Assembly: GCA_022703505.1 (NCBI GenBank) | Contig: JAKLDN010000009.1 | Coordinates: forward strand, 1 to 64,000 | DNA length: 64,000 nt | Reading direction: 5' to 3' | From: Spirochaetota bacterium | GTDB lineage: Bacteria; Spirochaetota; Spirochaetia; Treponematales; UBA12059 | The notes under the pieces: model-generated | The model's input: the letters and a program-made list of their open reading frames with translations, nothing else | Database searches by the model: none | Told to the model about the DNA's origin: nothing | Shown here: positions 28,442 to 46,294 of the stretch, one piece after another | Numbering within the stretch: position 1 is the stretch's first letter | Layout of the letters: each line of letters begins with the position of its first letter | Position numbers and translations under genes: made by a program

Positions 28442-29083
28442 ATGAAATACCAGGCGACGGCCTCCCGGGAGGTCTGGGACCGCTTCATCGTGTTCGAGGG
28501 AATCGACGGAACCGGGACGACAACCCAGAGAAACCTCCTGTCCGAGACGCTCAGGACCCGGTCCATTCCCTTCCATTCTACCGCGGAGCCCACGGATTCC
28601 GAGATAGGCCGGTTGATCCGGAAGATCCTGGCGGGCGACGTCCGCGTCCGGCCGGAAACCCTCGCCTACCTGTACGCCACCGACCGAAACGAGCACATCT
28701 TCGGCGAAGGGGGTATCCGGGAGCACCTGGACGCCGGGGAGGTCGTCGTTTGCGACCGGTATTTCTTCTCATCCCTCGCGTACCAGGGCAGCGCCTGCGG
28801 GCCTGAGCTCCCGGAACGACTCAATCAGGGATTCCCCCTTCCGTCCCTCCTGGTCTATTTCGAGCTGTCCCCGGATCGCGCCCTCTCCAGGATTTCCGGA
28901 CGGGGCGTCCCGGATATCTTCGAACGCGGCGATTTCCTCTCCCAGGTCTCCCGGGCATATGAGGACATCCTCAACCGGTGCGCAGACCAGGGCTTGAGGG
29001 TGATCCGGATCGACGGATCCCGGACGATACCGGAAGTGGCGGACGACATTCAACGGGCCGTCCTCTCCGCGATCGAAGGATAA
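28442..29083 (+). CDS. tmk: Thymidylate kinase (dTMP kinase) with altered P-loop
   Basis: The 213-residue protein has the dTMP kinase layout: FIVFEGIDGTGTTTQ P-loop region (residues ~15-29), the EPTDSEIGRLIRKIL segment, the DRYFFSSLAYQG motif (DRY) and LVYFELSPDRALSRI. The invariant Walker A lysine (GxDGxGKST) is Thr here (T26), so ATP phosphate binding must differ. An in-frame ATG at 28397 would extend the protein by 15 residues that lack family similarity, so I use 28442. It is transcribed divergently from tamB. It makes dTDP for DNA synthesis. Confidence 0.9.
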   Translation: MKYQATASREVWDRFIVFEGIDGTGTTTQRNLLSETLRTRSIPFHSTAEPTDSEIGRLIRKILAGDVRVRPETLAYLYATDRNEHIFGEGGIREHLDAGEVVVCDRYFFSSLAYQGSACGPELPERLNQGFPLPSLLVYFELSPDRALSRISGRGVPDIFERGDFLSQVSRAYEDILNRCADQGLRVIRIDGSRTIPEVADDIQRAVLSAIEG

Positions 29084-29163
29084 ACAACCCCGGCCCAGGA
29101 AGGTTTCCTTCCGCGCTCGAGCCGATAACGGATTCTGGCGAATCTTCCGATACTATGATCGGT

Positions 29164-29760
29164 ATGAAGCGCTCCGTTCTGTTCGCCATCCTCCTTATTG
29201 CGGCCGCGGCCGGGCTGACCGCCTATCCCGTATACTTCAAGGAACAGTATTACAGGCTCTTCCATACCCACTACATCCAGTATCCGGACGACGCTATCGA
29301 GAACATCTATTGGCTGGAACGGGCACGGGACGCAGATTTCTGCAATCCCCTGTACGCCTTGGCCAAGATCGAGAACGAACGCCAGTGGGAGCGGTACCGC
29401 TACCTCATGAACATGCATCTGGAGCTCAAGCTGATCGAGCAGCACCTGGCCCTGGGATCCAAGTTCGACAAGCGGGTTGCTTATTTTTACAACGCCCCCT
29501 GGAAGGACCAGAACCTGGAAAGCCTCAAAATCGCGGAAACCGCCTACAAGGCCGCCCTGGCCTACTGGCCCGCGGCCGTGGAATGGGCCCGGAAGGCCGA
29601 GGGCCTCCGGTTCGTCCGCTTGCCCGAAGTCCAGGCCTGGGAAGACCAGGCCCAGCGCATCGTCAGCGGAGACCTGGACTACTCGGATATCATCGCGGAT
29701 GAACTGGCCCGGGTATCCAGGGTGAGGAAAGCCTTCGAATCGATGCAGTTCACCTACTGA
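29164..29760 (+). CDS. Exported protein of unknown function
   Basis: The 198-residue protein has an N-terminal hydrophobic segment (MKRSVLFAILLIAAAAGLTAYP), either a signal peptide or a membrane anchor, with no lipobox Cys. The rest is helical and rich in Tyr/Trp/Glu (YYRLFHTHYIQYPDDAIENI; NPLYALAKIENERQWERYRY). I do not recognise the family, although the even composition suggests a conserved, structured protein. ATG 29155 three codons upstream is an alternative start; a TACTAT box 7 bases before ATG 29164 may be the promoter. It lies downstream of tmk but 80 bases away. Confidence 0.75.
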   Translation: MKRSVLFAILLIAAAAGLTAYPVYFKEQYYRLFHTHYIQYPDDAIENIYWLERARDADFCNPLYALAKIENERQWERYRYLMNMHLELKLIEQHLALGSKFDKRVAYFYNAPWKDQNLESLKIAETAYKAALAYWPAAVEWARKAEGLRFVRLPEVQAWEDQAQRIVSGDLDYSDIIADELARVSRVRKAFESMQFTY

Positions 29761-29845
29761 TCGTACTATCCGGGCAGCATCCATCCGCCGGATCGCAGGA
29801 TAGTGAACCCACCTACAGAGAAATCCCGGTTTCCCCCCGGCCCTG

Positions 29846-29886
29846 AGGAAAAAGAAACGGGGCATCCCGGAAATGGGACACCCCGT
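29846..29886 (-). terminator. Rho-independent terminator of the SPOR-domain gene
   Basis: On the minus strand ACGGGG...CCCCGT form the outer stem (29886-29857) with inner TCCC/GGGA pairs, followed by TTTCTTTTT. It lies 23 bases after the stop of the SPOR-domain gene. Confidence 0.8.
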
Positions 29887-29908
29887 CATCCTAATGGCCG
29901 GGCTATTT

Positions 29909-31435
29909 TCAGTTCTTCAGGAAGGCTTCCTTGAATCCCAAGGACCGGACCTGCAGCAAGGCCACTCCGGTTTCGTCCCTCCCCAGGGGACCTACGAACA
30001 GCCTGTACAGGGGACCGGGGCCGGTCGTGACCGTATCGATCGTTACGGGGAAGGCCCCTCGAAGCCGCGCCGCGGCGGTTTCTACGGCGGCCGTCGTCTT
30101 GAAGGCCCCTACCTGTATGTAATGTCTCCCCGGAATGAGGCTCGTGGAGTCCGGGGCGGCGGCAGGCTCCTTCGGAGGAGACGACGGTTTCACGGGAACC
30201 GGGGCGGCGGCGACCGGGGCCGCGGGGGCCGCGGCCGGCTTGGTCGGAGCCTCCGGGGGCTTGGGAGCCGCGGGTTCCATCGTGACGACGACATCCGCCG
30301 GTTCGGCCGGCACGGAATCCGCGGGCGGTACGACCGGCGAGGGCTCGGGCTGCTTCTCAGGTTCCGTTTTGGCCACCGCGATCGGTTCCGCGAGGCCGAC
30401 TTCCGGCGCTCGATCCGAATCGGGAGAGCCGGTCTGGCTCCGCGACAGGGCTTCCGGCTTTCCGGAGTCATCCATGCGTATTTCCAGGTCCGCCAGCGCC
30501 ACGCTCGGCGCCGGATCCGCCGGCCAGGCCTTCCGGGTCAGGGCAGTCTCCGGAAGCTCGTCCGGTACCAGCACCGGGTCCGCCAGGGCGGCCTCCACGG
30601 GGAGAGCCGCGGGAGCGGGCCGATTCAGTCCGTGGACCACGGCCTTGTCCTCGGGGACCTCGCGGACCGCGGCCGTTTCGGGAGCCGGAAGGACCGCGGT
30701 GACGGGTCCGGACTCCAAGGGGACGACCCCCGGGCGGGCGATCAATTCGGGCCGGACCACGGGAACTTCCTTGGCGCTGGGGCTTTCGGGGACCGGGGCG
30801 GGGGGAAGAGAGGGTTCCGGCGCCTCGGATGGGGCGGAAACCTCCGGGGGCTCGGTCGGGGCTTTCGGCGATACCTCGGCGTTGACCACCGCGGACGGGG
30901 GCGGAGCGAGGTTCGAGGGCACCGGTTCCGGGATCGCCGGTTCCTCCGACGCGGTTCCTGCGGCCCCCGGCTCGGCCGCAACCGCGGGCACCTCAACGGG
31001 GATCGTAGATCGTGGCTCCTCGGTAGGAGTGGATACCCCGGCCCGGGAGGCCAGGAGGCTGGGATTGAAGTCCGGATCAACGCCGGGCCCCGAGCCCGCA
31101 GGCGGAGTCTCGGCGATGTTGCGGGGGGCGGATACCCGTACCCGGGACAGGGAGCCCGGTTCCATGGAGAGGGCTTTCGCCGCTTCGGGAGAGAGAAGCA
31201 GGAAGATCCCGGGGTTTTCCAAGCCCTTGGTGACGATCACGGTCACGGACTTGCCGTTCTCCAGGTTCACTACCTCCACGGCCGTGTTCCTGGGGAAGGA
31301 ATTGCAGGCCGCGTAGTATCCGGAATCCGGGAACTCCCCATACGCGCTCATCATGGCGCTTCCTTCCCAGGCGGATGCGCCCAACAAGGACGTCGCGAGA
31401 AGGGCGATACAAAGCACCGGCATCCATCGTTTCAT
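29909..31435 (-). CDS. RlpA-like protein with C-terminal SPOR domain
   Basis: The 508-residue protein has a signal peptide (ending LLGASA), an RlpA-like double-psi barrel region (~28-105: SAYGEFPDSGYYAACNSF, NTAVEVVNLENGKSVTVIVT, LLLSPEAAKALSM), a very long Pro/Ala/Glu-rich linker (~106-430), and a C-terminal SPOR domain (HYIQVGAFKTTAAVETAA...YRLFVGPLGRDETGVALLQVRSLGF). SPOR domains bind denuded septal glycan; RlpA proteins are glycan-cleaving or division-site proteins. No lipobox Cys follows the signal peptide, so it is probably soluble in the periplasm. It follows a small secreted-protein gene by 19 bases. Confidence 0.85.
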   Translation of the reverse strand: MKRWMPVLCIALLATSLLGASAWEGSAMMSAYGEFPDSGYYAACNSFPRNTAVEVVNLENGKSVTVIVTKGLENPGIFLLLSPEAAKALSMEPGSLSRVRVSAPRNIAETPPAGSGPGVDPDFNPSLLASRAGVSTPTEEPRSTIPVEVPAVAAEPGAAGTASEEPAIPEPVPSNLAPPPSAVVNAEVSPKAPTEPPEVSAPSEAPEPSLPPAPVPESPSAKEVPVVRPELIARPGVVPLESGPVTAVLPAPETAAVREVPEDKAVVHGLNRPAPAALPVEAALADPVLVPDELPETALTRKAWPADPAPSVALADLEIRMDDSGKPEALSRSQTGSPDSDRAPEVGLAEPIAVAKTEPEKQPEPSPVVPPADSVPAEPADVVVTMEPAAPKPPEAPTKPAAAPAAPVAAAPVPVKPSSPPKEPAAAPDSTSLIPGRHYIQVGAFKTTAAVETAAARLRGAFPVTIDTVTTGPGPLYRLFVGPLGRDETGVALLQVRSLGFKEAFLKN

Positions 31436-31454
31436 ATTGTCTCTCCCGCGGATA

Positions 31455-31958
31455 TCACCCGCGTTCCTTCCTCAAGGTCCTCGCCCACACCGCCGCCAAG
31501 GTTTTCCCCAGCTGGGAAAGGCGTTCCCGGCGTTCCTCGACCGTCCCGGAATCGAACCGTTCCGGCTTCTCGGACCCCTCGGCCAGGGCACTGCCGTCCC
31601 GGACCCTCATGAGCCTCCAGGCGAGGGATTCCGGGAACCGCACCGGCGGGTCCGAAGGTGTATCCGCATAGCGTATCCAGACGAGGGCGACATAGTCCAC
31701 ATACCCTTCCCGGGCCGACTTCAGACCCAGGACGCTCGACTGGAAGTCCGCCCGGCCGATCCGTCCGATCGTCTCGTTGGTGGCGATGAATCCGGCCGCG
31801 AAGAGATGGTCCAGGCAGCCGCCCAATAGGGCGTCGGACAGGTCCGGGGCTTCCGGTCCCCCCGAGTCCTCGAGCAGCGCGACCGAGAAGGTCTGTCCCG
31901 ACAGGGGCGCGGCCAGGCAGAGGACGGCAAGTACGCAAGCCGATACGGTTCGCTTCAC
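31455..31958 (-). CDS. Small secreted protein of unknown function
   Basis: The GTG start at 31958 has GGAG 6 bases upstream and gives a 167-residue protein with a clear signal peptide (KRTVSACVLAVLCLAAPLSGQ). The mature part includes SVALLEDSGGPEAPDLSDALLGGCLDHLFAAGF, a VDYVALVWIRY strand and a basic C terminus. I recognise no domain; the layout recalls small periplasmic proteins that sit beside SPOR proteins. It is probably co-transcribed with the downstream RlpA/SPOR-like gene. Confidence 0.7.
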   Translation of the reverse strand: MKRTVSACVLAVLCLAAPLSGQTFSVALLEDSGGPEAPDLSDALLGGCLDHLFAAGFIATNETIGRIGRADFQSSVLGLKSAREGYVDYVALVWIRYADTPSDPPVRFPESLAWRLMRVRDGSALAEGSEKPERFDSGTVEERRERLSQLGKTLAAVWARTLRKERG

Positions 31959-32022
31959 GGATACTCCTCTCCGCCTTCCAATATCGGCGTTCCGGCGTGC
32001 CGCGCTTACCCTTTTTTCCACG

Positions 32023-32051
32023 TTGAACCGGATCGTCCGCCGTGGTATTGT
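32023..32051 (+). promoter_or_regulatory. Promoter of the NusG-paralogue-led operon
   Basis: TTGAAC (32023-32028) and TATTGT (32046-32051) are separated by 17 bases. The predicted start near 32058 leaves a short leader of about 15 nucleotides containing GGAG before the ATG at 32073. Confidence 0.65.
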
Positions 32052-32072
32052 GCGCTCCAGGGAGCCGGAGGG

Positions 32073-32630
32073 ATGCAGTACTACGCGGTTCAAGTGAAAT
32101 CCCGATGCGAGGACGAGTATGTCCGCAGGCTCAGGTCGAATCCCGCCGTTTCCGGGGCGGAGATCCTCCTCCCGAAGCGCACGGTGATCCTTCGCAAGGG
32201 CGGTATCAAGCGGCGGGGAACGGCCCCCGTATTCCCGGGCTACGTCTTCCTGGGGCTCGACGAGGCGGTGAACCCGGAACTCCGCTGGCTCGTCCGCAGG
32301 ACTCCGGATTTCTACCGATTCCTGCCTTCCAATCAGGATCCCGTTCCCCTGGGCGGGCGGGACCTGGACCTGCTCACGCACTTCATTTCCTTCGGGGAAC
32401 GTGCCGATACCTCAAAGGTAGCCTTCGACGAGAACGACCGAATCGTCGTGCTGGAAGGCCCCCTGAAAGGCCTGGAAGGCCTGATCGTGAAGGTGGACCG
32501 CCGGAAAGGCCGGGCCAAGGTCCGGCTGGACATGTGCCGGAACTCCTTCCTGATCGACCTGGCCTTTTCCGTCGTGGACCGCGCGGGGAAAGGACAAACG
32601 GAACCCCATGGAGAATCGCGAGGAACCTAG
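32073..32630 (+). CDS. Specialised NusG-family transcription antiterminator (LoaP/RfaH/UpxY-like)
   Basis: The 185-residue protein has a NusG N-terminal domain (YYAVQVKSRCEDEYVRRL at the start, then PVFPGYVFLGLDE) and a C-terminal KOW domain (DENDRIVVLEGPLKGLEGLIVKVD, ~118-145). NusG paralogues at the head of polysaccharide or specialised-metabolite operons act as operon-specific antiterminators; general nusG normally sits next to rplK, not here. The following gene starts 23 bases before this one ends. From this position I infer that it promotes full-length transcription of the downstream sugar and molybdoenzyme genes. Confidence 0.87.
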   Translation: MQYYAVQVKSRCEDEYVRRLRSNPAVSGAEILLPKRTVILRKGGIKRRGTAPVFPGYVFLGLDEAVNPELRWLVRRTPDFYRFLPSNQDPVPLGGRDLDLLTHFISFGERADTSKVAFDENDRIVVLEGPLKGLEGLIVKVDRRKGRAKVRLDMCRNSFLIDLAFSVVDRAGKGQTEPHGESRGT

Positions 32631-34095
32631 GATCTACGTGATCGGCGCGGGCTTCGCCGGTCAATCCATCGCCCGGGAAATCAAGGCCCGGGGGATACTG
32701 GGCCGGGTCGTCGCCTTCCTGGACGACGATCCCGAGAAGATCGGACGGCGCCTGGAAAACGTGCCGGTCCTGGGACCGATCCGGGACGTGGTGAATCTCC
32801 TGCGGCGCACCCCCGCGGACGAGGCCATCATCGCCATGCCCAGCGCTTCCCGGGATTACCTCCGGGAGCTGTACGGATTGTTGAAGGCCGCGGGGTTTTC
32901 CCGCATCCGCATCCTTCCCGGCATAGCCCAGATCGTGGAGGGGGACGCCCACCTCATCCAGGCCCGGGAGATCGATCCCCAGGACCTCCTGGGCCGGGGT
33001 CCCGTGGTCATCGGCCTGGCGGAGAGCCTTTCCTACCTCAAGGAAAAGCGGGTCCTGGTCACCGGGGCCGGGGGCTCCATCGGCTCCGAACTGGCCCGCC
33101 AGCTCCTTTCCGCCCGGGTCCAGAGGCTCTACCTCTTCGGCCACGGGGAGAACTCCATCTACCAGATCGATAAGGAACTCCGCCTGCTCCAGGCTGGCGG
33201 GGTCGGGGTCCGGACGGACATCGTTCCCGTCATCGGGGAGCTCAAGGACCGGGCCTACACGACCCATATCCTGAAACGTCTCAAGGCGGATGTGATCTTC
33301 CACACGGCGGCCTACAAGCACGTTCCCATGATGGAGGAGAATCCGGTCGCCGCGGTGGAGAACAACGTCTTCGGGACCTGGAACCTGGCGGAGGCCGCCC
33401 GGGAAGCCGGAACCCAGCGCTTCGTGCTGATCTCCACGGACAAGGCCGTGGATCCCGTCTGCGTGTACGGGGCCTCCAAGCTGATCTCCGAACGGATCGT
33501 CCGGGAGGCCCAGAAGAAGGTCGGTGCAGGACGGAAATTCATGGTGGTCCGGTTCGGGAACGTCCTGGGATCCCGGGGTTCCATCCTTCCCCTGTTCCAG
33601 CGGCAGATCGAGACGGGAGGCCCCGTAACGGTCACGGATCCGGAAGCCAGCCGCTATTTCATGACCATCCCCGAAGCCTGCTCCCTGGTGCTCAAGACGG
33701 GGGGCGTGGGCGAGGGCGGGGAATCCTACCTCCTGGACATGGGGGAACCCGTCCGGATCAAGGACCTGGCGGAGCAGCTGATCCGGTTCTACGGCTTCGA
33801 GCCCGAGCGTGACATCCCCATCCGGTACATCGGACTGCGGCCTGGGGAACGGACGGTCGAGAGGCTGCACAGCGAACGGGAAACCCTCATCCCCACGACC
33901 TTCCCGAGGGTGAATCGCCTGGTGCCGGACTCCGATACGGACCTTCCGGTGGACCGACTCCTGGAGGAACTCCGGCCCGTCTGCGCGCCCCTGGAAGGTC
34001 GGGAGGGGGAGTACCGGAACCGGCGCAGGCTACGCCAGATCCTGAGGACCTACATACCGACCGTGGAGGCCCCGGCCCATGAACCCGAGTACTGA
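32608..34095 (+). CDS. Nucleotide-sugar 4,6-dehydratase, CapD/PglF-like, without membrane domain
   Basis: The 495-residue protein has an N-terminal Rossmann CoA-binding-like domain (VIGAGFAGQS, 11-20) and a C-terminal short-chain dehydrogenase domain (VTGAGGSIGSE, 151-161; STDKA, 276-280). Relatives dehydrate UDP-GlcNAc as the first step to diamino- or nonulosonic-type sugars. The usual N-terminal transmembrane helices of PglF/WbpM are absent. The SDR tyrosine is present as YGASK (287-291), where PglF/WbpM-type enzymes have Met, so FlaA1-like chemistry is possible. It overlaps the NusG-like gene and the aminotransferase gene. Confidence 0.88.
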   Translation: MENREEPRIYVIGAGFAGQSIAREIKARGILGRVVAFLDDDPEKIGRRLENVPVLGPIRDVVNLLRRTPADEAIIAMPSASRDYLRELYGLLKAAGFSRIRILPGIAQIVEGDAHLIQAREIDPQDLLGRGPVVIGLAESLSYLKEKRVLVTGAGGSIGSELARQLLSARVQRLYLFGHGENSIYQIDKELRLLQAGGVGVRTDIVPVIGELKDRAYTTHILKRLKADVIFHTAAYKHVPMMEENPVAAVENNVFGTWNLAEAAREAGTQRFVLISTDKAVDPVCVYGASKLISERIVREAQKKVGAGRKFMVVRFGNVLGSRGSILPLFQRQIETGGPVTVTDPEASRYFMTIPEACSLVLKTGGVGEGGESYLLDMGEPVRIKDLAEQLIRFYGFEPERDIPIRYIGLRPGERTVERLHSERETLIPTTFPRVNRLVPDSDTDLPVDRLLEELRPVCAPLEGREGEYRNRRRLRQILRTYIPTVEAPAHEPEY

Positions 34096-35248
34096 TTTCG
34101 TCCCCTTCGCCCTGCCCTCCCTGGGACCGGAGGAGGAGGAGGCCGTCCTTGCGGTTCTCCGTTCCGGATGGCTGACCACGGGATCCGTGGCCCTCCAGTT
34201 CGAGAGGGAGTTCGCCTCCTTCGTCGGGGCGGAGCACGCCCTGGCGGTGAACTCGGCGACCAGCGGCCTGCACCTGGCCCTGGAAGCCCTGGGCGTCGGC
34301 CCCGGGGACACCGTGGTCACGAGCCCCTATACCTTCGCCTCCACGGCCGCGGTAGCCCGGCACCTGGGCGCGGAGGTGGTCTTCTGCGACGTGGTCCCCG
34401 GGGGCTACAACATGGACCCCCGGCGGCTCGAGGAGGTGCTCGCGTCCACCCGGAACGTGAAGGCCGTAGTGCCGGTCCACGTCGGCGGACTGCCCTGTTC
34501 CATGCCGGAAATCCTGGACCTGGCCCGCAGGTACGGATGCGCGGTTGTCGAGGACGCCGCCCATTCCTTCCCCTCCCGCCTTCCGGGCGGCTTCGCGGGG
34601 ACCCTGGGGGATATCGGGGTCTTCTCGTTCTACGCCACCAAGACCATCACCACCGGAGAGGGCGGCATGGTCGTGACCTCTGATTCCCGCCTGGCCAAGC
34701 GGATGTCCGTCATGCGCATGCACGGAATCGACAAGCCCGTCTGGGACCGCTACACCTCGAAGACCGCGTCCTGGAGCTATTCCGTCGTCGAGGCGGGGTT
34801 CAAGTACAACCTCCCGGACCTCCTGGCGGCCATTGGCCGGGAACAGCTCAAGAAGGCCGACCGGTTCCTGGAGGAGAGGCGCCGGATCGCCGGGATCTAC
34901 GGCGAAAGCTTCCGCGGCCTACCCTTCGCGGAGCTTCCTCCGGAGGGCCCCGGCCACGCCTGGCACCTGTATTCCCTCCGCCTCAGGCCGGGGAGCCTGC
35001 AGGCGTCCCGGGACGAATTCGTGGATCGGCTCCGAGAGGCGGGGATCGGGACCTCGGTGCACTTCATCCCCCTCCATACCATGCCCTATTGGGCGGAGCG
35101 ATACGGGCTTACCCCGGACAGGTTCCCGGAAGCTCTTTCCTCCTTCCAACGGACCGTCTCCCTGCCCATCTGGCAGGGCATGGGCGAGGACCGCGCCCGC
35201 AGGGTGGCACGGGCCGTAGCAGAGACGGGCGCCGGGCTGTCGGGCTAG
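34079..35248 (+). CDS. DegT/DnrJ/EryC1-family sugar aminotransferase
   Basis: This PLP enzyme of 389 residues transfers an amino group to a 4-keto nucleotide sugar. The family pattern is complete: SATSGLHLALEALGVGPGDTVV, the PLP-stacking EDAAHSFPS segment, and the Schiff-base lysine in FYATKTITTGEGG (K188). The C-terminal domain contains GIGTSVHFIPLHTMPYW. It overlaps the dehydratase gene by 17 bases (GGAGG 9 bases before its ATG), so the pair should make a UDP-4-amino-4,6-dideoxyhexose. No glycosyltransferase follows; the next genes encode a molybdoenzyme. Confidence 0.93.
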   Translation: MNPSTDFVPFALPSLGPEEEEAVLAVLRSGWLTTGSVALQFEREFASFVGAEHALAVNSATSGLHLALEALGVGPGDTVVTSPYTFASTAAVARHLGAEVVFCDVVPGGYNMDPRRLEEVLASTRNVKAVVPVHVGGLPCSMPEILDLARRYGCAVVEDAAHSFPSRLPGGFAGTLGDIGVFSFYATKTITTGEGGMVVTSDSRLAKRMSVMRMHGIDKPVWDRYTSKTASWSYSVVEAGFKYNLPDLLAAIGREQLKKADRFLEERRRIAGIYGESFRGLPFAELPPEGPGHAWHLYSLRLRPGSLQASRDEFVDRLREAGIGTSVHFIPLHTMPYWAERYGLTPDRFPEALSSFQRTVSLPIWQGMGEDRARRVARAVAETGAGLSG

Positions 35249-35255
35249 GAGCAGC

Positions 35256-37355
35256 ATGCCGCGGGACCGGAACGAATCGCTGAGCGCCGATATCCCCCTG
35301 TCCGATCTTCGCGACGAGGGGATGATCCGGGTCGTCACCGTCCGCGCCCCGGTCTGTCGGGGACGCATCACGGACATCGAGGTCCCCCGCCTGCCCCGGG
35401 GATACCGGGCCATCAGGGCCGAGGATATCCCTGGAGAGAACCGCCTGGCCATCCTGGGCTTCGACATTCCCATCCTGGCCCGGGATCGGGTCGCCTACGC
35501 CGGAGAGCCCGTCCTGCTCCTGGCGGGACCGGACCCGGCCGTCCTCGAAGACTTGCGGAGCACGGTCCGGGTATCCGTCCAGGAGGAGGAGCCCGTCCTC
35601 GAGTGGGAGTCCTTCTCCCCGGAGCAGGTGATCCAGCGGCGGAGCGCCGTGCTGGGGAACCCCGAGAAGGCCTTCGAAGCCGCGGCGGAGGTCCTGGAAG
35701 CCCGGTACCGGACGGATTCCCAGGAGCACCTCTACCCGGAGCCCCAGGGAGCCCTGGCGGTCTTCGACTACGACAAGCTCGTCATCCGCTGCGCCACCCA
35801 GTGGCCCTTCCACGTTCGGGACTGCGTGCGGTCCGTCCTGGGGGTCAAGCCCCAGGAGGTCATCGTCCGCCCGACCCCCCTGGGGATCCCCATGGAGGGA
35901 AGGCTCTGGTACCCTTCGGTCCTGGCCTGCCACGCCGCCCTGGCCGCCGTCCTGTGCCGGAAGCCCGCCCGCATCCTCCTGTCCCGGGACGAGGATTTCC
36001 GGTTCACCCCGAAGAAAGCCCGCTCCCTCGTTACCCTGCGCGCGGGTCTCGACCCCTCGGGCACCCTGACGGTCCTGGAGGCCGTAGTCGTCCTGAACAC
36101 CGGGGCGTACGCTCCCCTCGCCTCGGAGCTTCTGGAACAGGCCTGCCTTCAGATCACGGGATCCCTTTCCATACCGAACCTTCGAGTCCAGGGCTACGCC
36201 GTACGGACCAACACCCCCCCCCTTGGCGCGTTTTCCGGGATGGGAGCCGCCCATTCGCTCTTCGCCGCGGAGAGCCTGGCCAGCCGGATAGCCCGGGACC
36301 GGGAGGAGGATCCCCTGGAATGGAGGGCCCGCCACTTCCTCCGGAAGGGATCCCCCCTGCTGACCGGGGAACGGCTTCGGGACAGGACCACCTTCGAGGA
36401 GATAGGCTCCCGGCTCAAGGCCTCCAGCGATTTCGCCCGTAAACACGGCAGCAACGAACTCATCCGCAAGCGGCGATCCGCCTCCCGAAGCGAGGAAGCC
36501 CCCCGGGGTATCGGGATCGCGTTCGGGTACCAGGCCAACGGCGCGTCCTACGCCGCCCTGGCCTCCGGCACCTTCACGGTGGAGACCACCCTGAACAAGG
36601 ACCTTTCCCTGGTGATCTCCACCAGCGCGATAGCGGGCGACGAGGGTATCCGATCCATCTGGCGCTCCACCGCCGCCGGCATCCTGGGCGTTCCCCTGGG
36701 CAGGGTATCCATCTCCGAGGTGGATACCGCCTCGGTGCCCGATTCCGGCCCGTCCATGCTTTCCCGCAACATCTCGGTCGTGAATCGCCTGATCGAACGG
36801 AGCTGTATCGCCATTCGAAGCCGAAGGTTCCGGTCTCCCCTGCCCATCGCCTCCCGGGCCGTGCATCGCCCCAGGAATCCGCTGCGCTGGGAGGAGGATG
36901 CGGTCCGGGGTTATCCCTTCGAGTCCCTTTCCTGCTGCGGGGCGGTGGTGGAACTGGAATTGGATACCTGGAGCATGGAACCCCGCATCCTGGGGGTCTG
37001 GCTCTGCGTGGACGGCGGACGGATCGCCTCCGAGCGATTCGCCCGGGGCACCCTGTCCTCGTCCACCCTGGCGGCCCTGGGCCAGTGTTTCCGGGAACGC
37101 CTGCCCTTCGAGGAGGGGCGTGTGGCCGAGAACGGGTACCGGGAATACGGGCTTCTGTCCCTGGCGGAAGCCCCGCCCATCGAGATCGAGTTCCTTCCGT
37201 GGAGCGATACGGATCCCTTGAAGGGAATCGGGGAACTGCCCTTCCTCTGCATCCCCGCGGCATTCGCCTCCGCGGCCGCCCAGGCTTCCGACCTGGGCGG
37301 GGAAAGCCTTCCCTTCGACGGCGCGGAGTACCTTGCCGGGATGGAAGCCGTATGA
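35256..37355 (+). CDS. Xanthine dehydrogenase-family molybdopterin subunit, divergent
   Basis: The 699-residue protein aligns with the large subunit of molybdenum hydroxylases: a short N-terminal a/b hammerhead (DRVAYAGEPVLLLAG), QEHLYPEPQGALAVFD, and a C-terminal GIGELPFLCIPAAFASA that supplies the catalytic Glu. Key positions differ from xanthine dehydrogenase: the usual AFRGxG loop is AFSGMG, and the GQG element appears as GDEG. Substrate cannot be inferred. The ATG has AGGAG 4 bases upstream and lies 7 bases after the aminotransferase gene. The [2Fe-2S] and FAD subunits follow with overlapping genes. Confidence 0.85.
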   Translation: MPRDRNESLSADIPLSDLRDEGMIRVVTVRAPVCRGRITDIEVPRLPRGYRAIRAEDIPGENRLAILGFDIPILARDRVAYAGEPVLLLAGPDPAVLEDLRSTVRVSVQEEEPVLEWESFSPEQVIQRRSAVLGNPEKAFEAAAEVLEARYRTDSQEHLYPEPQGALAVFDYDKLVIRCATQWPFHVRDCVRSVLGVKPQEVIVRPTPLGIPMEGRLWYPSVLACHAALAAVLCRKPARILLSRDEDFRFTPKKARSLVTLRAGLDPSGTLTVLEAVVVLNTGAYAPLASELLEQACLQITGSLSIPNLRVQGYAVRTNTPPLGAFSGMGAAHSLFAAESLASRIARDREEDPLEWRARHFLRKGSPLLTGERLRDRTTFEEIGSRLKASSDFARKHGSNELIRKRRSASRSEEAPRGIGIAFGYQANGASYAALASGTFTVETTLNKDLSLVISTSAIAGDEGIRSIWRSTAAGILGVPLGRVSISEVDTASVPDSGPSMLSRNISVVNRLIERSCIAIRSRRFRSPLPIASRAVHRPRNPLRWEEDAVRGYPFESLSCCGAVVELELDTWSMEPRILGVWLCVDGGRIASERFARGTLSSSTLAALGQCFRERLPFEEGRVAENGYREYGLLSLAEAPPIEIEFLPWSDTDPLKGIGELPFLCIPAAFASAAAQASDLGGESLPFDGAEYLAGMEAV

Positions 37356-37840
37356 AGCTGGATTTCATCCTGAACGGGGAGGACGTCTCCTGCCAGGCGG
37401 AGGCGGGGGACCGGCTGGCCTACATCCTGCGGGAGCGGTTTTCCCTTCTCGGGGCGAAGGAGGATTGCCGGTCCGGCCATTGCGGCCTGTGCATGGTAAG
37501 CCTGAACGGCCGGGCGGTCCCCTCCTGCCTGGTCCCGGCCTTCCGGGTCCGGGGAGCCGAGGTCGTCACGATCGAGGGATTCGAACTGACCGACGACTAC
37601 GCGGATCTCCGGGACGGATTCCGTAAGGCCGGGGCGGAGCCCTGCGAATTCTGCCGGGGAGCCGTCTTCTTGTCCGCCGCCGCCCTGCTGGATGAGCGTC
37701 CGCGTCCAGAGGCCACCGAGATCCTGGAGCACCTGTCCGCGGTGTTCTGCCGATGTCACGACCCCTCGGCCCTGGTTCGGGGAGTCCAGACCGCCGCGGA
37801 ACTGCGGGCCCGGAGGATGTATTTCCGTGCGAATCGATGA
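37352..37840 (+). CDS. Molybdenum hydroxylase [2Fe-2S] subunit
   Basis: The 162-residue protein has both cluster motifs of the small subunit: C-x4-C-x2-C-x11-C in the ferredoxin-like N-terminal half (CRSGHCGLC, then PSC) and C-x2-C (CEFC) with C-x-C (CRCH) in the helical C-terminal half. It passes electrons from the molybdenum centre to the FAD subunit. Its ATG overlaps the stop of the large-subunit gene (ATGA), so the proteins are made in step. The C-terminal CRCHDP replaces the usual CRCTGY. Confidence 0.93.
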   Translation: MKLDFILNGEDVSCQAEAGDRLAYILRERFSLLGAKEDCRSGHCGLCMVSLNGRAVPSCLVPAFRVRGAEVVTIEGFELTDDYADLRDGFRKAGAEPCEFCRGAVFLSAAALLDERPRPEATEILEHLSAVFCRCHDPSALVRGVQTAAELRARRMYFRANR

Positions 37841-38672
37841 GGTGATCGTTCCGGCCACCTTGAGCGAAGCCCTCTCGGCGCTCAAGAGGAACCCCGATGC
37901 CGTTCTCTGCGCGGGGGGCACGGAGCTCTTTTCCGAAGGACCGGCCGGACCGGCCGACCGTAATCGGACGCTGATTTCCCTCCATGGGATTCAGGAACTC
38001 CGGCATGTCTCCCGCACGGACCTCTACGTCGAGGTCGGATCCATGACCACCCTGGCGGAGCTTCTCGCGTTGAAGGAAGGCTTCGTGCCGGAAACCCTCC
38101 GGTCCGTGGTACACGGGATAGGAACCTTCGCGGTGCGGAACCTCGCCACCCTCGGGGGCAACCTGTCGGTCACGGATCGGTTCCGGGACTGCTTTCCGAT
38201 CCTGGCTTGCATGGACGCCCTCGCGGAATACCGGCAGGGAACCGCTTCGCGCTGGGTGAACCTGAACCGCCTGATCGGTCCCCGGGGGACCCCGGAAATG
38301 CCCCGGGGGGAGATCCTCACGAGAATCCGGATTCCCCTGGGAGGATGGGACCTCGGGATCGCCCACAAGCTCGGGTTCCCGAGGATCAACTCCCGAAAGT
38401 CCAGCCTTTTCGTAGCCCTGGCCCGCACGGACAAACGGGCCCTTTCCGACATACGCATCCTCTACGCCTGCGACCGGGCCCTGAGAAGCCGGGAAATCGA
38501 ATCTTCCCTCGCCGGGAAGAAGATCCCCCTCTTGCCCCGGGATATAGAATCCGCCGTCGGTGCCTACGCGGACTATTGTTCCCACGCGGGCATCCGGGAA
38601 TCCTCGGCCGCCCGATTCCTGACCTTGGTGCGCAGGGCTTTCAACCAGCTCAACGAGGGGGTGACGGCATGA
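37827..38672 (+). CDS. Molybdenum hydroxylase FAD-binding subunit
   Basis: The 281-residue protein matches the medium subunit: AVLCAGGTELFSE (the AGGTDL-type FAD motif), RNLATLGGNLSV (TIGGNI-type motif) and a C-terminal CO-dehydrogenase flavoprotein domain (~170-275). It would reoxidise the enzyme by passing electrons to NAD+ or another acceptor. The GTG start at 37827 has GGAGG 10 bases upstream and overlaps the previous gene by 14 bases. It overlaps the methylase gene at ATGA. Confidence 0.9.
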   Translation: MRIDEVIVPATLSEALSALKRNPDAVLCAGGTELFSEGPAGPADRNRTLISLHGIQELRHVSRTDLYVEVGSMTTLAELLALKEGFVPETLRSVVHGIGTFAVRNLATLGGNLSVTDRFRDCFPILACMDALAEYRQGTASRWVNLNRLIGPRGTPEMPRGEILTRIRIPLGGWDLGIAHKLGFPRINSRKSSLFVALARTDKRALSDIRILYACDRALRSREIESSLAGKKIPLLPRDIESAVGAYADYCSHAGIRESSAARFLTLVRRAFNQLNEGVTA

Positions 38673-39553
38673 AGGCCCCGGGCCGCCTCTTCCTCCTGCC
38701 CGCCCCGATCGGGGACGGCGATCCCCTGGCAACCCTCTCTCCGGAGGTCATCGAGATATACCGGAGCCTGCGGCACTTCGTGGTCGAATCGGAGAGGACC
38801 GCAGGCCGCCTCCTCTCCCGGATCCTGACACCCGAATCCCTCCAGGAGACCGCGTTGAATACCCTGAGCGAGCATACGGATCCAAAAGCCATACCGGGCC
38901 TCCTGGAACCGGCCCTGGAGGGACGGGATCTGGGAATTCTCTCGGAGGCGGGCTGCCCTTGCGTCGCGGATCCGGGAGCCGACCTGGTGGCTGAAGCCCA
39001 TCGGCTCGGCATCCGGGTCGTACCCCTGCCCGGTCCGTCTTCCATTCTTCAGGCCCTGATGGCGTCCGGGTTTTCCGGCCAGAGGTTCGAGTTCCTCGGA
39101 TACCTGCCGCCCAGGGGAGAGGATCGCAGGCAGGCCCTGAAGCGCGTGGAGCGGGAAGCTTCCCGGGACGGGTCCACGCGGATTTTCATCGAAACCCCCT
39201 ACCGCAACCAGGCCTTGCTGGATGACGCCCTGGCCGTCCTGGAACCGGGCACCCGGTTCTGTGTCGCGATATCCCTGGGGGGGGCCTCCGAACTCGTCCG
39301 CTCGATGGAGATCCACCGCTGGCGCGCCGCGGGGATCCACCTGGAAAAGGAGCCCGCCGTATTCCTCCTGGCCCCGAAGGCGGTTCCCGGCGCCTTGACG
39401 GGCCGACCTTCCGGCGAGGCCGCCGTTAAACGGGAAGGGCCGAGATCCGGCTCGGCGGCGCGACAAGCGGCCCGGCCATCGGCCGATCGACACGGATCTC
39501 CTCGAACCGGACAGACAGCCCGCCGCCGAACCCGGAAAAATCCGGGTGCTTGA
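38669..39553 (+). CDS. Tetrapyrrole methylase-family SAM-dependent methyltransferase (RsmI-like)
   Basis: The 294-residue protein has the tetrapyrrole methylase fold: LFLLPAPIGDGDP at the N terminus, LGILSEAGCPCVADPGADLVAEA, the VVPLPGPSSILQALMASGFSG motif and FLGYLPPRGEDRRQAL. It is closest to the RsmI/COG0313 group (2'-O-methylation of 16S C1402), but it lacks the DTR-type loop of classical RsmI, so it may be a paralogue with another target. The last ~50 residues are Arg/Ser-rich and basic, suggesting RNA binding. It overlaps the FAD subunit gene at ATGA and ends within a promoter. Confidence 0.85.
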   Translation: MKAPGRLFLLPAPIGDGDPLATLSPEVIEIYRSLRHFVVESERTAGRLLSRILTPESLQETALNTLSEHTDPKAIPGLLEPALEGRDLGILSEAGCPCVADPGADLVAEAHRLGIRVVPLPGPSSILQALMASGFSGQRFEFLGYLPPRGEDRRQALKRVEREASRDGSTRIFIETPYRNQALLDDALAVLEPGTRFCVAISLGGASELVRSMEIHRWRAAGIHLEKEPAVFLLAPKAVPGALTGRPSGEAAVKREGPRSGSAARQAARPSADRHGSPRTGQTARRRTRKNPGA

Positions 39554-39577
39554 CGCGGGCACGGCTTCCGGTACAAT
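39550..39577 (+). promoter_or_regulatory. Promoter of the PilZ-like gene, overlapping the upstream stop
   Basis: TTGACG (39550-39555) and TACAAT (39572-39577) are separated by 16 bases. The -35 box covers the stop codon of the methylase gene and the ATG at 39587 follows the -10 by 9 bases. Confidence 0.7.
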
Positions 39578-39586
39578 GGACGAGGT

Positions 39587-40396
39587 ATGGTAAAAACCGA
39601 CAAGGTGAACGTCAGCGAAACGTACGCGGAATCCGTGGTCTCCCTCAGCCCCTTCGCCTTGAAGAAACTGGGTATCATATCCAACCAGACCCTCCTCAAG
39701 GTGGATACCTACAACCTGGTGTGCATACCGTACCGGCTTTCCATGAAGGGGGCCGTACTCCTGGGGTCCTTTTCCCGGGACGAGATCGTCTTCTTCCAAA
39801 GGTTCAAGGGATCCCTGGCGGGTCTCAATCTCGTCCTGCAACCCGGGGATTCCCCCGCGCCCCGCAAGGTTTTTTGCCGCTGTTCCCTGGCCCAGTTCGC
39901 CCCCATGAAAGGCAGGGAATCCGTCGGCCTCATCTCCGTGGAATTCCGCCCCTGCCCCCCGGACCTGGAGAACCTCATCGGCGGATATGTGATGCTGATG
40001 GACCGCCTCCGGGCGGACTACCGGGACCTGTCCGGCAAGACCGTCCCCGTCAATCCGGAAACCGCGAAGATCCTGGGTTTCAACAACTACGCCACCCTGA
40101 ACTCCGGCTCCATCGTGACCAAGCTGGCCCTCTTCACCCTCGGGGCGGATCGTCTGGTCTTCCTGGCTCCCATGCAGACCCCGGATCTCCAGCCGGGGCA
40201 GACCGCGACCCTTCGCCTCTTCTTCCAGAAGTACCAATTCAACGTGGCCGGCCGGATCACGGAATCGATCCGCCTACCCACGGGCGTCCAGAAAGGGACC
40301 GTGGAGCTCGAGTTCTCCCCGGAGCTGGTGGATCTCCTGGAAATGTACTACCTCGAGGCGAAGCTGGGAGCCCGGATTCCGAAATCGGCCGTCTAG
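39587..40396 (+). CDS. PilZ-like protein (PilZN3-type), probable signalling protein
   Basis: The 269-residue soluble protein has two beta-rich halves. The first (about 15-130) contains PYRLSMKGAVLLGSFSRDEIVFFQRFKGSLAGLNLVL and ends VGLISVEFRPCPPDLENLIGGYVMLMDRL, a layout that recalls the PilZN3 domain found with PilZ in treponemes. The second half (145-260) is similarly barrel-like (QTATLRLFFQKYQFNVAGRITESI). I do not see the RxxxR and DxSxxG residues needed to bind c-di-GMP, so this may be a degenerate PilZ. GAGG precedes the ATG. Confidence 0.6.
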   Translation: MVKTDKVNVSETYAESVVSLSPFALKKLGIISNQTLLKVDTYNLVCIPYRLSMKGAVLLGSFSRDEIVFFQRFKGSLAGLNLVLQPGDSPAPRKVFCRCSLAQFAPMKGRESVGLISVEFRPCPPDLENLIGGYVMLMDRLRADYRDLSGKTVPVNPETAKILGFNNYATLNSGSIVTKLALFTLGADRLVFLAPMQTPDLQPGQTATLRLFFQKYQFNVAGRITESIRLPTGVQKGTVELEFSPELVDLLEMYYLEAKLGARIPKSAV

Positions 40397-40422
40397 GTCT
40401 GCCCCCCTTCCCGGACGGTCCC

Positions 40423-41439
40423 CTACAGGATTAACATCGCATCCCCGTAGCTGAAGAACCGGTACCGCAGGCGGACAGCCTCCTCGTAGGCCTTCAGGAT
40501 CAATTCCCTGCCCGCGAAGGCGGAGACCAGCATCAGGAGGGTGGATTCGGGGGTGTGGAAGTTGGTGAACAGGGCGTCCACGACCTGGAAGCTCCGGCCC
40601 GGGTACAGGAAGATCCGGGTCGAGCTGGAACCGGCCCGCAGGGATCCGTCCAACCATGCGCTCTCCAGGGTGCGCACGCTGGTCGTCCCGACGGCCACCA
40701 CGGGCCGCCCCTCCCGGCGGGCCCGGTTCACGGCCTCGGCTGTCGCCTCCGGCACGCTGTACTCCTCCTCGTGCATCACGTGGTCCTCGATCCGCTCCGC
40801 CCGGACGGGCAGGAAGGTACCCAGGCCCACGTGCAGGGTCACCTGGGCGGTTTCCATCCCCGCGGTCCGGAGGGAGGCCAGGAGCCCGTCCGTGAAATGT
40901 AGGCCCGCCGTGGGGGCCGCCACGGACCCGATGGTCCGGGAATACACGGTCTGGTACCGTTCCGCGTCGAAACCGTCGTCCTGCCTGCGGATATAGGGAG
41001 GGAGGGGCATGTGCCCCCACCGATCCAGGTACTCGTCGTCGATCGGCCGGTCCAGCTCCAGGATTCGCAGATCCTCCTCGGTGCCGACGATGCGCCCCTC
41101 GATCCCGCCCGGGAACGCGTACCGCTTTCCGGGAACCTGTTTCCGGGCCTTGGTCGTCATGGCCAGCCATTCCCGGTCCCCCCGGCGGCGGAGCAGGAGG
41201 AATTCCACCCGGCCGCCGGTACCGGACTCGGCGTAGATCCGGGCCTTCCGTACCTTGGAGTCGTTGAACACCAGCAGGGATCCCGGGGGGAGGTGCCGGG
41301 CGAGGTCCGAGACGGCGGAGTGCGTGAAGGTCCCCGTACCCCGGTCCAGGACGAAAAGCCGGGATGCCCCACGCTCGCCGCTCGGCCTCTGGGCGATCAG
41401 GTCTTCGGGAAGGTCAAAAGAGAAGTCTTTCGTCCGCAT
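40423..41439 (-). CDS. queA: S-adenosylmethionine:tRNA ribosyltransferase-isomerase
   Basis: QueA transfers and rearranges the ribosyl of SAM onto preQ1-tRNA to give epoxyqueuosine. The 338-residue protein shows the family signatures [15 protein letters not shown] at the start, [44 protein letters not shown] and the C-terminal [18 protein letters not shown]. Its ATG lies inside the ruvB 3' end (26-base overlap), the frequent ruvB-queA arrangement. With tgt at 2153-3280 it provides two steps of queuosine synthesis. Confidence 0.97.
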
Positions 41440-42454
41440 GCCCGTTCCGGTATCCCAGGTGCTCGTAGGCCAGGGGGGCGGCCACCCGGCCCCGGGGAGT
41501 CCTCTGGAGGAACCCCGCCTGGATCAGGTAGGGCTCGCAGTAGTCCTCCAGGGTCTCCACGGATTCCCCCACGGAGATCGCGAGGGTCTCGGCGCCCACG
41601 GGCCCCCCGCCGTACTTCTCGATCACCGAGCGGAGTATGTCCCGGTCGTGGCGCTCCAGGCCGTACCGGTCCACCTCCAGGCGCGCGAGCCCTTCCTTGA
41701 CCACACCCTCGGTCACCCGTCCCTCCCCGAAAACCTGGGCGAAGTCGCGCATCCGCCGGAGCAGGCGGTTGGCGACCCGGGGGGTACCCCGGCTGGAGGC
41801 GGCCAGCAGGTCCGCGGCACCCGGGTCCAGCTCCATCCCCAGGATGGCGGCGGAGCGGTTCAGTATCAGGATGATCTCCCGGGGCTCGTAGAAGCCGAAG
41901 CGCAGGGAGATCCCGAAGCGGCTGACCAGGGGACTGGAAACCATTCCCGCCTTGGTGGTCGCCCCGACCAGGGTGAAGGGCGGCAGGGGAATCCGCACCG
42001 TGCGGGCGGAGGGTCCCTGGCCTATGATCCAGTCCAGCTCGAAATCCTCCATGGCGATGTAGAGCATCTCCTCGATGGCGGGCTTCAGGCGGTGGATCTC
42101 GTCTATGAAAAAGACCGTCCGTTCCGTGACGGTGGTCAGGATCCCGGCCAGGTCCTTGGGCTTGTCCAGGGCCGGAGCGCTGGTCACCTTGAAATCCACA
42201 CCCAGCTCCCGGCTCACGATCCCGGCCAGGGTCGTTTTCCCGAGGCCGGGAGGCCCCAGCAGGAAGACATGGTCCAGGGCCTCCCCCCGTTCCCGGGCGG
42301 CCCGTATGAAGACGGACAGGTTTTCCTTGAGGCGTTCCTGGCCCAGGAACTCCGAAAGGCGCTGGGGCCGAAGCACCCCTTCCTTGTCGTCCTCCGCGCC
42401 CCGCAGCCCGGGATCCAGGATGCCCCGGGGATCGCGCTCCGCCTCGGGGCTCAC
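41414..42454 (-). CDS. ruvB: Holliday junction branch migration ATPase RuvB
   Basis: RuvB is the hexameric motor that drives branch migration with RuvA. The 346-residue protein has Walker [10 protein letters not shown], Walker [10 protein letters not shown], the arginine-finger region [11 protein letters not shown] and the C-terminal winged helix ([16 protein letters not shown]). The start is GTG in a GTGA overlap with the ruvA stop. It overlaps queA at its 3' end. Confidence 0.97.
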
Positions 42455-43035
42455 GCGGACAGCTCCCGGATGGCCCTGCGGAAGAGCTCCTGCTCAGCCT
42501 CGGGACCGCCGGCGGCCCCGAGCTCCCCGGACAACCGGGCCACCGCCTCGGCCGCCCGCTTGCGGTCATAGCCCATGTCCGCCAGGGCCTGGACCACGTC
42601 GGCCCAGGGTCCCCGGACGGTCTGGGGCGCGGAGCCGGGCAGTTTCCCCTTCAGGGAGAATACCAGCTTCTGGGCGGTCTTGGCCCCGAGTCCCGGGACC
42701 TGCTGGAGCCGGGCTAGGTTCTCCGTGTCCAGGGCGGATTCCAGGTCCTCCGGGGAGATCCCGGACAGGATCTTCACCGCCTGCCGGGGCCCGATCCCCT
42801 CGACCTTGAGGAGCTCCAGGAAGAGCGCCCGTTCCCGTTCCGAGGGAAAGCCGAAGAGGCGCATCTGGTCCTCCCGGTGCAGGAGGTGGATGTAGACCTT
42901 GGTCCGTCCGCCGAGGGTTCCGAACTCGTCGATGGATCGGGCGGGCACCGAGAATTCCCATTCAAGGCCGTTGTTGTCGACCCGGAGGATGTCGAACCGT
43001 TTTTCCGTGATCGTCCCGAGGAGGGAATTGAACAT
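42451..43035 (-). CDS. ruvA: Holliday junction DNA helicase subunit RuvA
   Basis: RuvA tetramers bind the four-way junction and load RuvB. The 194-residue protein begins [20 protein letters not shown] (OB fold), has two helix-hairpin-helix motifs ([16 protein letters not shown] and [16 protein letters not shown]) and a C-terminal RuvB-binding domain ([21 protein letters not shown]). The ATG has no Shine-Dalgarno sequence and lies 6 bases after a TATACT box, so it may be translated from a leaderless mRNA as well as from the ruvC read-through transcript. Confidence 0.96.
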
Positions 43036-43041
43036 GCCGGG

Positions 43042-43070
43042 AGTATACCCCGGCGGGCCGGGCGCTTCAA
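43042..43070 (-). promoter_or_regulatory. Promoter of ruvA overlapping the end of ruvC
   Basis: On the minus strand TTGAAG (43070-43065) and TATACT (43047-43042) are separated by 17 bases and followed by 6 bases to the ruvA ATG. The -35 overlaps the ruvC stop codon. Confidence 0.7.
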
Positions 43071-43555
43071 CCTGGCCCGGTTTTTGGAATCCGATCGGCG
43101 AACCAGCGGTTGTGGGCATGGCACACGGCGGCGGCCAGGGCGTCCGCGGCGTGATCGGGCCGGGGAATTTCCGAGAGCCCGAGGAACATCCGGACGAATT
43201 CCTGGACCTGGGCTTTTTCTGCCCGGCCCCGCCCCACCAGGGACTGCTTGATGGCACCGGGGCCGTACTCCACGACCGCCAGTCCCGCCTGGCGGCAGGT
43301 CAGGCGCAGGACCCCCTTGGCCTCGGAGACGGACAGGGCGCTGGTCACGTTCTTCGCGAAGTAGAGGGCCTCCATGGCCACCTCCGCGGGTCCGTAGAGG
43401 TCCAGGATCCCGCGGATCCTCTCGTGGATGTCCAGGAGCCGGTCCTCCAGGGGGGTGGAGGCGGAGGTAGCGATACAGCCGTGGGCTACGTACTGGATAT
43501 GGCCGGGATTCGCGTCCAGGACGCCCCAGCCGGTGGAAGCCAGTCCCGGGTCCAA
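43067..43555 (-). CDS. ruvC: Crossover junction endodeoxyribonuclease RuvC (start codon unclear)
   Basis: RuvC resolves Holliday junctions. Catalytic acidic residues are visible in DPGLASTGWGV, in AMEALYF and in DHAADALAAAVCHAH. The normal N terminus, MRILGIDPGLAxTG, is encoded here as VRILGLDPGLASTG with codon GTC (43570-43568) where a start is expected, preceded by a strong GGGAGGGAGG. The only standard start in frame is the TTG at 43555, one residue before the catalytic Asp, which would remove the first beta strand. I therefore expect translation to begin at 43570 or at ATC 43564, or a base error. It lies between yebC and ruvA. Confidence 0.93.
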   Translation of the reverse strand: MDPGLASTGWGVLDANPGHIQYVAHGCIATSASTPLEDRLLDIHERIRGILDLYGPAEVAMEALYFAKNVTSALSVSEAKGVLRLTCRQAGLAVVEYGPGAIKQSLVGRGRAEKAQVQEFVRMFLGLSEIPRPDHAADALAAAVCHAHNRWFADRIPKTGPG

Positions 43556-44977: not shown

Positions 44978-45109
44978 CCTTGCATCTCCTTGTATACACC
45001 CCGGGTCCGCGCTCGGCGGACTCCGCATGCCAAGAGATTCCGGCGCCTGAAGGCGTCCCGGCTTTCAGGGAAACAGTTTATATGATAGCGTGGCGGTTGT
45101 CGAGTGTGG

Positions 45110-46294
45110 ATGGAAAAAAGCAAGGGGGAGCCGGTGGTATCCTACAGCTTCGTCGTTGAGGGAGTTGCCTATCATCCCGGGAACCCGCTCGTGATCGCGG
45201 AAATCGGGACCGGCCACGGGGGGGATCGGACGAAGGCCTCGGAACTGCTCCACGCCGCCCGGGAATCCGGCGCCGGATGCGCGAAGTTCCAGCACGTCTA
45301 CGCCCGGGAGATCATCCACCCCAGGACCGGAGCCGTCCCCCTTCCGGGCGGACCGGTTCCCCTCTTCGACCGGTTCCGGTCCCTGGAAACCGGCCCGGAC
45401 TTCTTCGCGGACCTGAAGGAGCAGGCGGAATCCCTGGGACTGTTGTTCCTTTGCACTCCCTTCGGGGTGCGAAGCGCCCGGGAACTCGCGGAGCTCGGGG
45501 TCCGGGCCGTCAAGGTCGCCAGCCCCGAGCTCAACCACGGGGAGCTCCTGGACGAGGTCGCCCGCATGGCCCTCCCCGCCATCCTGTCCTCCGGGGTTTC
45601 CACCCTGGGGGACATCGAGCGGGCCGTGGACCGGATCCGGCATGCAGCCGGGGACGGACCGTCCCCGGCCCTCCTCCACTGCGTGACCGCCTACCCCGCG
45701 CCCGAGGAGGACTACAACCTTCGGGTCCTGGAATCCCTTTCGCGGCTCCTGGGCCTTGCCGTGGGCGTCTCCGATCACTCCCGGGATCCCGTCCTGGTCC
45801 CGGCCCTGGCGGTCTGCGCCGGGGCCTCGATCGTGGAAAAGCACATCTGCCTGTCCCGATCGGACCCGGGCCTCGACGACCCCATCGCCCTTCCCCCCTC
45901 CGACTTCCGCCGGATGAGCGACGCGGTCCGGTCCGCCGCGGCGGACCCGCGGTCCGCCCGGGAAGCCCTGGAACGGGAGTATGGACCGGGCAGGGTGGAA
46001 GCGGTCCTCGGGGACGGCCGGAAACGGCTGGCCCCCAGCGAGCGGGCCAACTACGGCCGGACGAACCGGAGCCTCCACGCCCTGCGGCCTATCCCCCGGG
46101 GCGAGACCTTCACCCGGGAAAACGTGGCCGCCCTCAGGACGGAAAAAATCCTGCGACCCGGCCTTGACCCGGCGCTGTTCGACGTCGTGCTGGGCCGCCG
46201 GGCCGCCCGGGACGTTCCGGACGGGGAAGGGATCGAGTGGGGGGATGTGGGTGGACAGGAGCCAGGAGCCAGGAGCCAGGAGTCAGGGGGCTGA
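45110..46294 (+). CDS. NeuB-family sialic/pseudaminic acid synthase-like protein
   Basis: The ~394-residue protein has a NeuB TIM barrel (PLVIAEIGTGHGGDRTKASELLHAARESGAGCAKFQ, LGLLFLCTPFGVRSARELAELGVRAVKVASPE, LLHCVTAYPAPEEDYNLRVL, GVSDHSRDP, IVEKHICLSRSDPGLDD) and a C-terminal SAF/antifreeze domain (NRSLHALRPIPRGETFTRENVAALR). It should condense phosphoenolpyruvate with an N-acetylhexosamine derivative to give a nonulosonic acid. No other nonulosonate gene is adjacent; the dehydratase/aminotransferase pair at 32.6-35.2 kb could supply an amino sugar. Start is uncertain (ATG 45110, GTG 45104 or GTG 45134 after GGGGGAG). The last residues come from a heptamer repeat. Confidence 0.88.
   Translation: MEKSKGEPVVSYSFVVEGVAYHPGNPLVIAEIGTGHGGDRTKASELLHAARESGAGCAKFQHVYAREIIHPRTGAVPLPGGPVPLFDRFRSLETGPDFFADLKEQAESLGLLFLCTPFGVRSARELAELGVRAVKVASPELNHGELLDEVARMALPAILSSGVSTLGDIERAVDRIRHAAGDGPSPALLHCVTAYPAPEEDYNLRVLESLSRLLGLAVGVSDHSRDPVLVPALAVCAGASIVEKHICLSRSDPGLDDPIALPPSDFRRMSDAVRSAAADPRSAREALEREYGPGRVEAVLGDGRKRLAPSERANYGRTNRSLHALRPIPRGETFTRENVAALRTEKILRPGLDPALFDVVLGRRAARDVPDGEGIEWGDVGGQEPGARSQESGG
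46256..46283 (+). repeat. Four tandem CAGGAGC heptamers at the 3' end of the NeuB-like gene
   Basis: Three perfect copies of CAGGAGC (46256-46276) and a CAGGAGT copy (46277-46283) run into CAGGGGG. They encode the last residues (QEPGARSQES), which lie outside the SAF domain. Gain or loss of a 7-base unit would shift the frame and change the tail and stop position. Confidence 0.85.

Follow-up and report, generated by a model that had tools for sequence, protein, structure and literature searches.

Three described systems come closest to the locus analysed here, which lies in a window of 64,000 nucleotides (the whole stretch of DNA that was analysed; contig JAKLDN010000009.1, positions 1 to 64,000) of a Spirochaetota bacterium. 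The xanthine dehydrogenase/xanthine oxidase family (XDH; 1jro, 3etr) shares with it the bacterial-type arrangement in three subunits, the full fold of the large subunit and the subunits carrying a double [2Fe-2S] cluster and FAD. The trio of this locus differs from that family in the absence of the loops that bind the molybdenum cofactor (MoCo), in its identity of about 21%, in a set of conserved residues of its own, in being kept without MoCo synthesis and in adjoining sugar genes. The second system is LoaP of Bacillus velezensis (dfn/mln), a specialised NusG paralogue encoded, like the one found here, beside a long biosynthetic operon; in the window the paralogue is itself the first gene within the operon. 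LoaP has been reported in Spirochaetota close to biosynthetic operons, and in B. velezensis it acts through a UNCG hairpin in the leader (PMC12691694). The third is flagellin glycosylation by PglF-PglE and PseB-PseC, which offers the same pair of a 4,6-dehydratase and a C4 aminotransferase, together with a co-occurring NeuB-family synthase and flagellin. Unlike in those pathways, the pair described in this work scores below the equivalog cut-offs and is linked to an XDH-like trio, and the acetyltransferase and hydrolase steps that would belong to it were not located.

The cluster is composed of seven genes on the plus strand, and both this and the family names given in the original prediction agree with the open reading frames and the Pfam and NCBIfam domain calls. 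The first start codon is at 32073, and not at 32023 where the cluster had been said to begin. The genes encode a specialised NusG paralogue of the LoaP family (32073..32630; NCBIfam antiterm_LoaP, 133 bits), a CapD/PglF-like UDP-HexNAc 4,6-dehydratase without the membrane anchor (capD, 32608..34095; Polysacc_synt_2, 360 bits), a DegT/PseC-like sugar-nucleotide aminotransferase (degT, 34079..35248; DegT_DnrJ_EryC1, 391 bits) and the XDH-like trio: the large subunit (L, 35256..37355; MoCoBD_1 and MoCoBD_2), with the full XDH fold and a lost MoCo site, the double [2Fe-2S] subunit (S, 37352..37840; Fer2 and Fer2_2), with eight cysteines, and the FAD-binding subunit (M, 37827..38672; FAD_binding_5, 110 bits), with a GTG start and the motifs GGT and GGN. 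The seventh gene encodes an RsmI-like methyltransferase (38669..39553; TP_methylase), whose score for TIGR00096 (95.8 bits) is below the curated cut-off of 167.9, RsmI still being the nearest family. In gene order the junctions are overlaps of 23 and 17 nt, a gap of 7 nt between degT and the gene for the large subunit, and overlaps of 4 (ATGA), 14 and 4 nt (ATGA); the overlaps had been listed correctly and the gap left out. A further gene on the same strand, some 10 kb downstream and not part of the operon, encodes a NeuB-family nonulosonate synthase with a SAF domain (45104..46294; PF03102, 183 bits). The RsmI-like protein ends in a basic, low-complexity tail (RTGQTARRRTRKNPGA), and a PilZN3-domain protein is encoded 3' of the operon (39587-40396) and is kept there across the window's family.

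Conservation of the arrangement was read from the DNA around 100 matches, 91 of which are members of the family and nine canonical XDHs. The full order nusG-capD-degT-L-S-M is present in 51 of the 91 family loci outside the window, which is an additional case (32+18+1, with L037 taken as normal order, its apparent flip being one very long stop-to-stop ORF); another 15 carry capD-degT-L-S-M without the NusG paralogue, and capD, degT and the large subunit are together in at least 70, several of the 91 loci being interrupted by contig ends. As the same order is conserved in dozens of genomes, chance can be excluded as the origin of the arrangement. Searching with the large subunit (E<=1e-55) gave matches in every genome of the window's family (23/23) and in 117/149 genomes of its order, and a later profile search found it also in several genomes of family f3 initially scored negative. 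A GTDB scan returned 140 relatives, and the best 80 of these 140 are titled spirochaete with one exception, titled only 'bacterium'. A distribution beyond the spirochaete class was rejected, since the five outside-class matches in the phylum that were read are all canonical XDHs. The RsmI-like gene is found 3' of the trio in families f1, f2 and f4 only; it is a local addition, confined to the family of the window and its close neighbours, and was rejected as a core member, the first six genes being the conserved unit. Of the seven families predicted to co-occur, the first six are thus kept together and the seventh is local, and the NusG-led unit joining amino-sugar genes to an XDH-type trio proves to be deeply conserved. 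We consider it reasonably probable that the operon is an ancient possession of the spirochaete class built of two modules, capD-degT and the XDH-like trio.

The NusG paralogue of the window passes the NCBIfam LoaP cut-off of 125 bits, and each of the 22 orthologues that were aligned matches the same model (E<=0.001). Unlike for LoaP of B. velezensis, a simple stem scan found no conserved UNCG hairpin in the leader: short UNCG stem-loops are present in 4/28 leaders at positions which are not shared. Intrinsic terminators inside the operon are not in excess (2 observed against 6.6 expected), and no Moco or other riboswitch was matched in Rfam within 28000-46500. With neither conserved hairpin nor terminator excess nor Rfam match found, antitermination is inferred from membership of the LoaP family alone; the paralogue, as the product of the first gene, probably assists RNA polymerase along the transcript of about 6.6-7.5 kb.

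The large subunit has lost the residues by which XDHs hold the molybdenum cofactor. Aligned to genuine XDHs, the window copy has GIPMEGR in place of GGxFGGK, FSGMG in place of FRGFG and AGDEG in place of MGQG, and keeps KGIGE. Over 60 rows of the family the cofactor loop GGxFGxK is kept in none, the arginine of FRG in one and the catalytic glutamate of KGxGE in 39. The canonical controls are one locus of genome G023 (L093), which keeps all motifs, and eight later canonical loci of the class, which keep both loops. A branch with support of 100 separates the family from the canonical rows in a FastTree tree. The positions of the former pocket are at the 55th percentile of conservation in the family and the 43rd in Treponemataceae, against the 79th in canonical rows. 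The AF2 model of the window's large subunit (pLDDT 90.4) has as its best structural match bovine xanthine oxidase (3etr_C; Z 46.5 over 675 residues). Residues conserved in the family and absent from canonical XDHs are W183, W218, L446, W469, L529, P530 and P554, while Q676 is conserved in the family and lacking in all but one canonical row. The subunit looks remodelled rather than plainly decayed; that family-specific tryptophans, with W183 and W218 as candidates, fill the former cofactor cavity is only a suggestion.

The distribution of cofactor synthesis leads to the same point. MoaC was found in 61/149 genomes of the order and 57/148 of the class, and MoeA in 52/149 of the order; 25/60 genomes carrying the family have no MoaC, several of these genomes being complete. 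The molybdenum-cofactor genes to which the original prediction had directed attention are present in the window genome (MoaC and MoeA); the same genome also has separate canonical XDH matches that would use the cofactor. The alternative of a conventional molybdenum hydroxylase whose cofactor pocket has diverged could draw on the full XDH fold, on the glutamate kept in about two thirds of rows and on the cofactor genes and other XDHs of the window genome, but we hold it very improbable in view of the loss of the cofactor loop in every row and of the FRG arginine in 59/60, of the persistence of the trio in complete genomes that have neither MoaC nor MoeA, and of the absence of even the KGxGE glutamate in the Treponema pallidum-like genome described below. 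The molybdoenzyme reading was rejected on these grounds, and the "molybdenum-hydroxylase-like enzyme" of the original prediction does not stand in a functional sense. The most surprising part of the locus is that an XDH-shaped complex free of molybdenum is retained across the spirochaete class; we know of no XDH-family complex without molybdenum that has been described. An annotation naming it a xanthine or quinoline oxidoreductase would mask its function. Three XDH-like matches have a single in-frame TGA in a long open frame (G224:C129:7786-9855, G254:C2:171166-173235 and G258:C105:46864-49014), for which selenocysteine is one possibility. In aflagellate genomes of families f22 and f8 a small HTH protein is encoded near the trio on the opposite strand (L245 2899-3258, L247 2468-2788); it resembles by eye the N-terminal domain of ModE and is found in genomes without a MoaC match.

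The other two subunits are better preserved in their cofactor ligands. All eight cluster cysteines are kept in 79/91 small subunits, the window copy included, and the FAD-subunit motifs GGT and GGN in 66/90 and 68/90, respectively. FAD-subunit residues R136, W143 and P234 (98%) are conserved in the family and absent from canonical XDHs, and E134 is present in 98% of the family against 22% of canonical rows. Twelve of the 91 small subunits, from scattered lineages, miss some cysteines, the one of G174 nearly all, and this makes it less likely that a redox role is obligatory in those lineages. The reading we prefer is that of an FAD/[2Fe-2S] redox complex, in which the trio would keep the XDH scaffold, free of molybdenum and in most lineages with FAD and two [2Fe-2S] clusters, and would shuttle electrons between its substrate and a nucleotide-linked reductant. 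The main rival holds the trio to be a pseudoenzyme: a scaffold, or a regulatory assembly, of XDH shape whose cofactors can be dispensed with and which is kept for a structural role, for instance in binding a partner protein or nucleotide sugar. It fits a former MoCo pocket conserved no better than average, the scattered loss of Fe-S ligands where fold-forming glycines and prolines are kept, and the retention of the trio in the T. pallidum-like genome despite its strong reduction; the cysteines and FAD motifs kept in most rows speak against it, and we regard it as rather doubtful. To the more specific form of the redox reading, namely a molybdenum-free enzyme with FAD, [2Fe-2S] and a remodelled active site acting on the nucleotide-amino-sugar branch of the flagellin glycan, with one cluster in T. 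pallidum, we give the same low credence.

The reduced genome (G032), one contig of 1,139,633 bases from the same taxonomic order as the window, has capD-degT-L-S-M intact. It is very probably that of T. pallidum, in part because a sigma-54 activator beside the trio fits TP0082 FhlA of this species (PMC5015957). Its small subunit is without all four cysteines of cluster 1 (HNSY) and keeps the four of cluster 2. MoaC and MoeA are absent; flagellins and a NeuB orthologue (329 bits) are present. A literature search on T. pallidum loci found no paper treating the XDH-like trio. That the trio is kept across the class, apparently even by the syphilis agent with its 1.14 Mb, implies that its function is important. 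On the 3' side of NeuB, both G024 and the T. pallidum-like genome encode a small conserved protein carrying the motif GGRMERRPPPK (L287 9232-9642, L289 7323-7733).

In the sugar module, CapD orthologues keep the NAD and YxxxK motifs, and the PLP lysine of DegT is kept in 54/55 rows, the exception being a non-orthologous neighbour. A deoxygenation of the E1/E3 type, in which a DegT protein without this lysine is fed by an FAD/2Fe-2S reductase, was rejected because the lysine is kept. CapD reaches 176 bits against the PseB equivalog cut-off of 408 (NCBIfam); DegT has PseC as its nearest NCBIfam model, with 357 bits against 423.5; and the NeuB-family synthase scores 217 bits for NeuB and 183 bits for PseI, both below cut-off. 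CapD and DegT would convert UDP-GlcNAc to a UDP-4-amino-4,6-dideoxy-HexNAc, a precursor from which the separately encoded NeuB-family enzyme, probably of the same pathway, would make a nonulosonate-type sugar for flagellins. The distance between NeuB and the large subunit is 8-12 kb in the window, as it is in G001, G002, G004, G005, G010, G049, G052, G109, G120 and G148, a proximity which conserved housekeeping neighbours may explain in part.

Presence of the sugar module follows that of flagellin. No flagellin (PF00669) is present in the genomes tested from f4 genera g17, g20, g43, g51, g23, g29 and g46 and of f7, f8, f13, f14, f16-g73 and f22, and most flagellin-negative genomes tested are also without strong NeuB matches. 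In aflagellate loci with readable flank capD-degT is missing beside the trio (L084-L086, L245, L247, L249, L250, L252, L253, L255, L256, L258), and a genome-wide search of six f4 genomes was negative for window-type DegT (highest score 153 bits, orthologues reaching at least 429). Among tested genomes with readable flank, the pair adjoins the trio in 13/15 flagellin-positive and 0/12 flagellin-negative ones (L243, on a 6.5-kb contig without the upstream flank, was excluded). On the tree this loss amounts to three independent events, all agreeing with flagellin absence, and with only three the association cannot reach significance. The distribution of NeuB is similar. Exceptions are the Borreliaceae-like f24, flagellin-positive without NeuB or trio; G029 and G210, with flagellin and NeuB where capD-degT is not beside the trio; and G033, G036 and G062, without flagellin and with a NeuB match. 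In Treponema denticola a flagellin glycan of 450.2 Da is essential if filaments are to assemble and cells to be motile (PMC9481697), and capD-degT is therefore best read as feeding such a glycan. The sugar pathway beside the trio thus probably decorates spirochaete flagella, and the operon offers candidates for the first two steps in this flagellin-glycan pathway.

The two halves are separable. In seven aflagellate loci (L084-L086, L249, L252, L256, L258) capD-degT is gone and the trio has kept the NusG paralogue beside it. As the trio persists in aflagellate lineages without capD-degT, a shared pathway is not required, and the idea that the operon oxidises and decorates a common product finds no support here. 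These loci, with the genome-wide absence of window-type DegT from the tested f4 genomes, also suit the explanation that the modules share a transcript by old gene order only, the trio having a housekeeping job unrelated to glycans. We take this to be a serious contender, a little short of an even chance: adjacency is kept in most families read in the class, whereas unrelated neighbours would usually drift apart. Taken as a whole, a two-module operon in which capD-degT feeds the flagellin glycan and the trio forms an FAD/[2Fe-2S] complex free of molybdenum appears to us moderately probable. In G029 (L090 1-7590) the trio is kept, and upstream on the other strand lies a sugar cluster of DegT/CapD type, unrelated to the usual capD-degT, whose place it may take.
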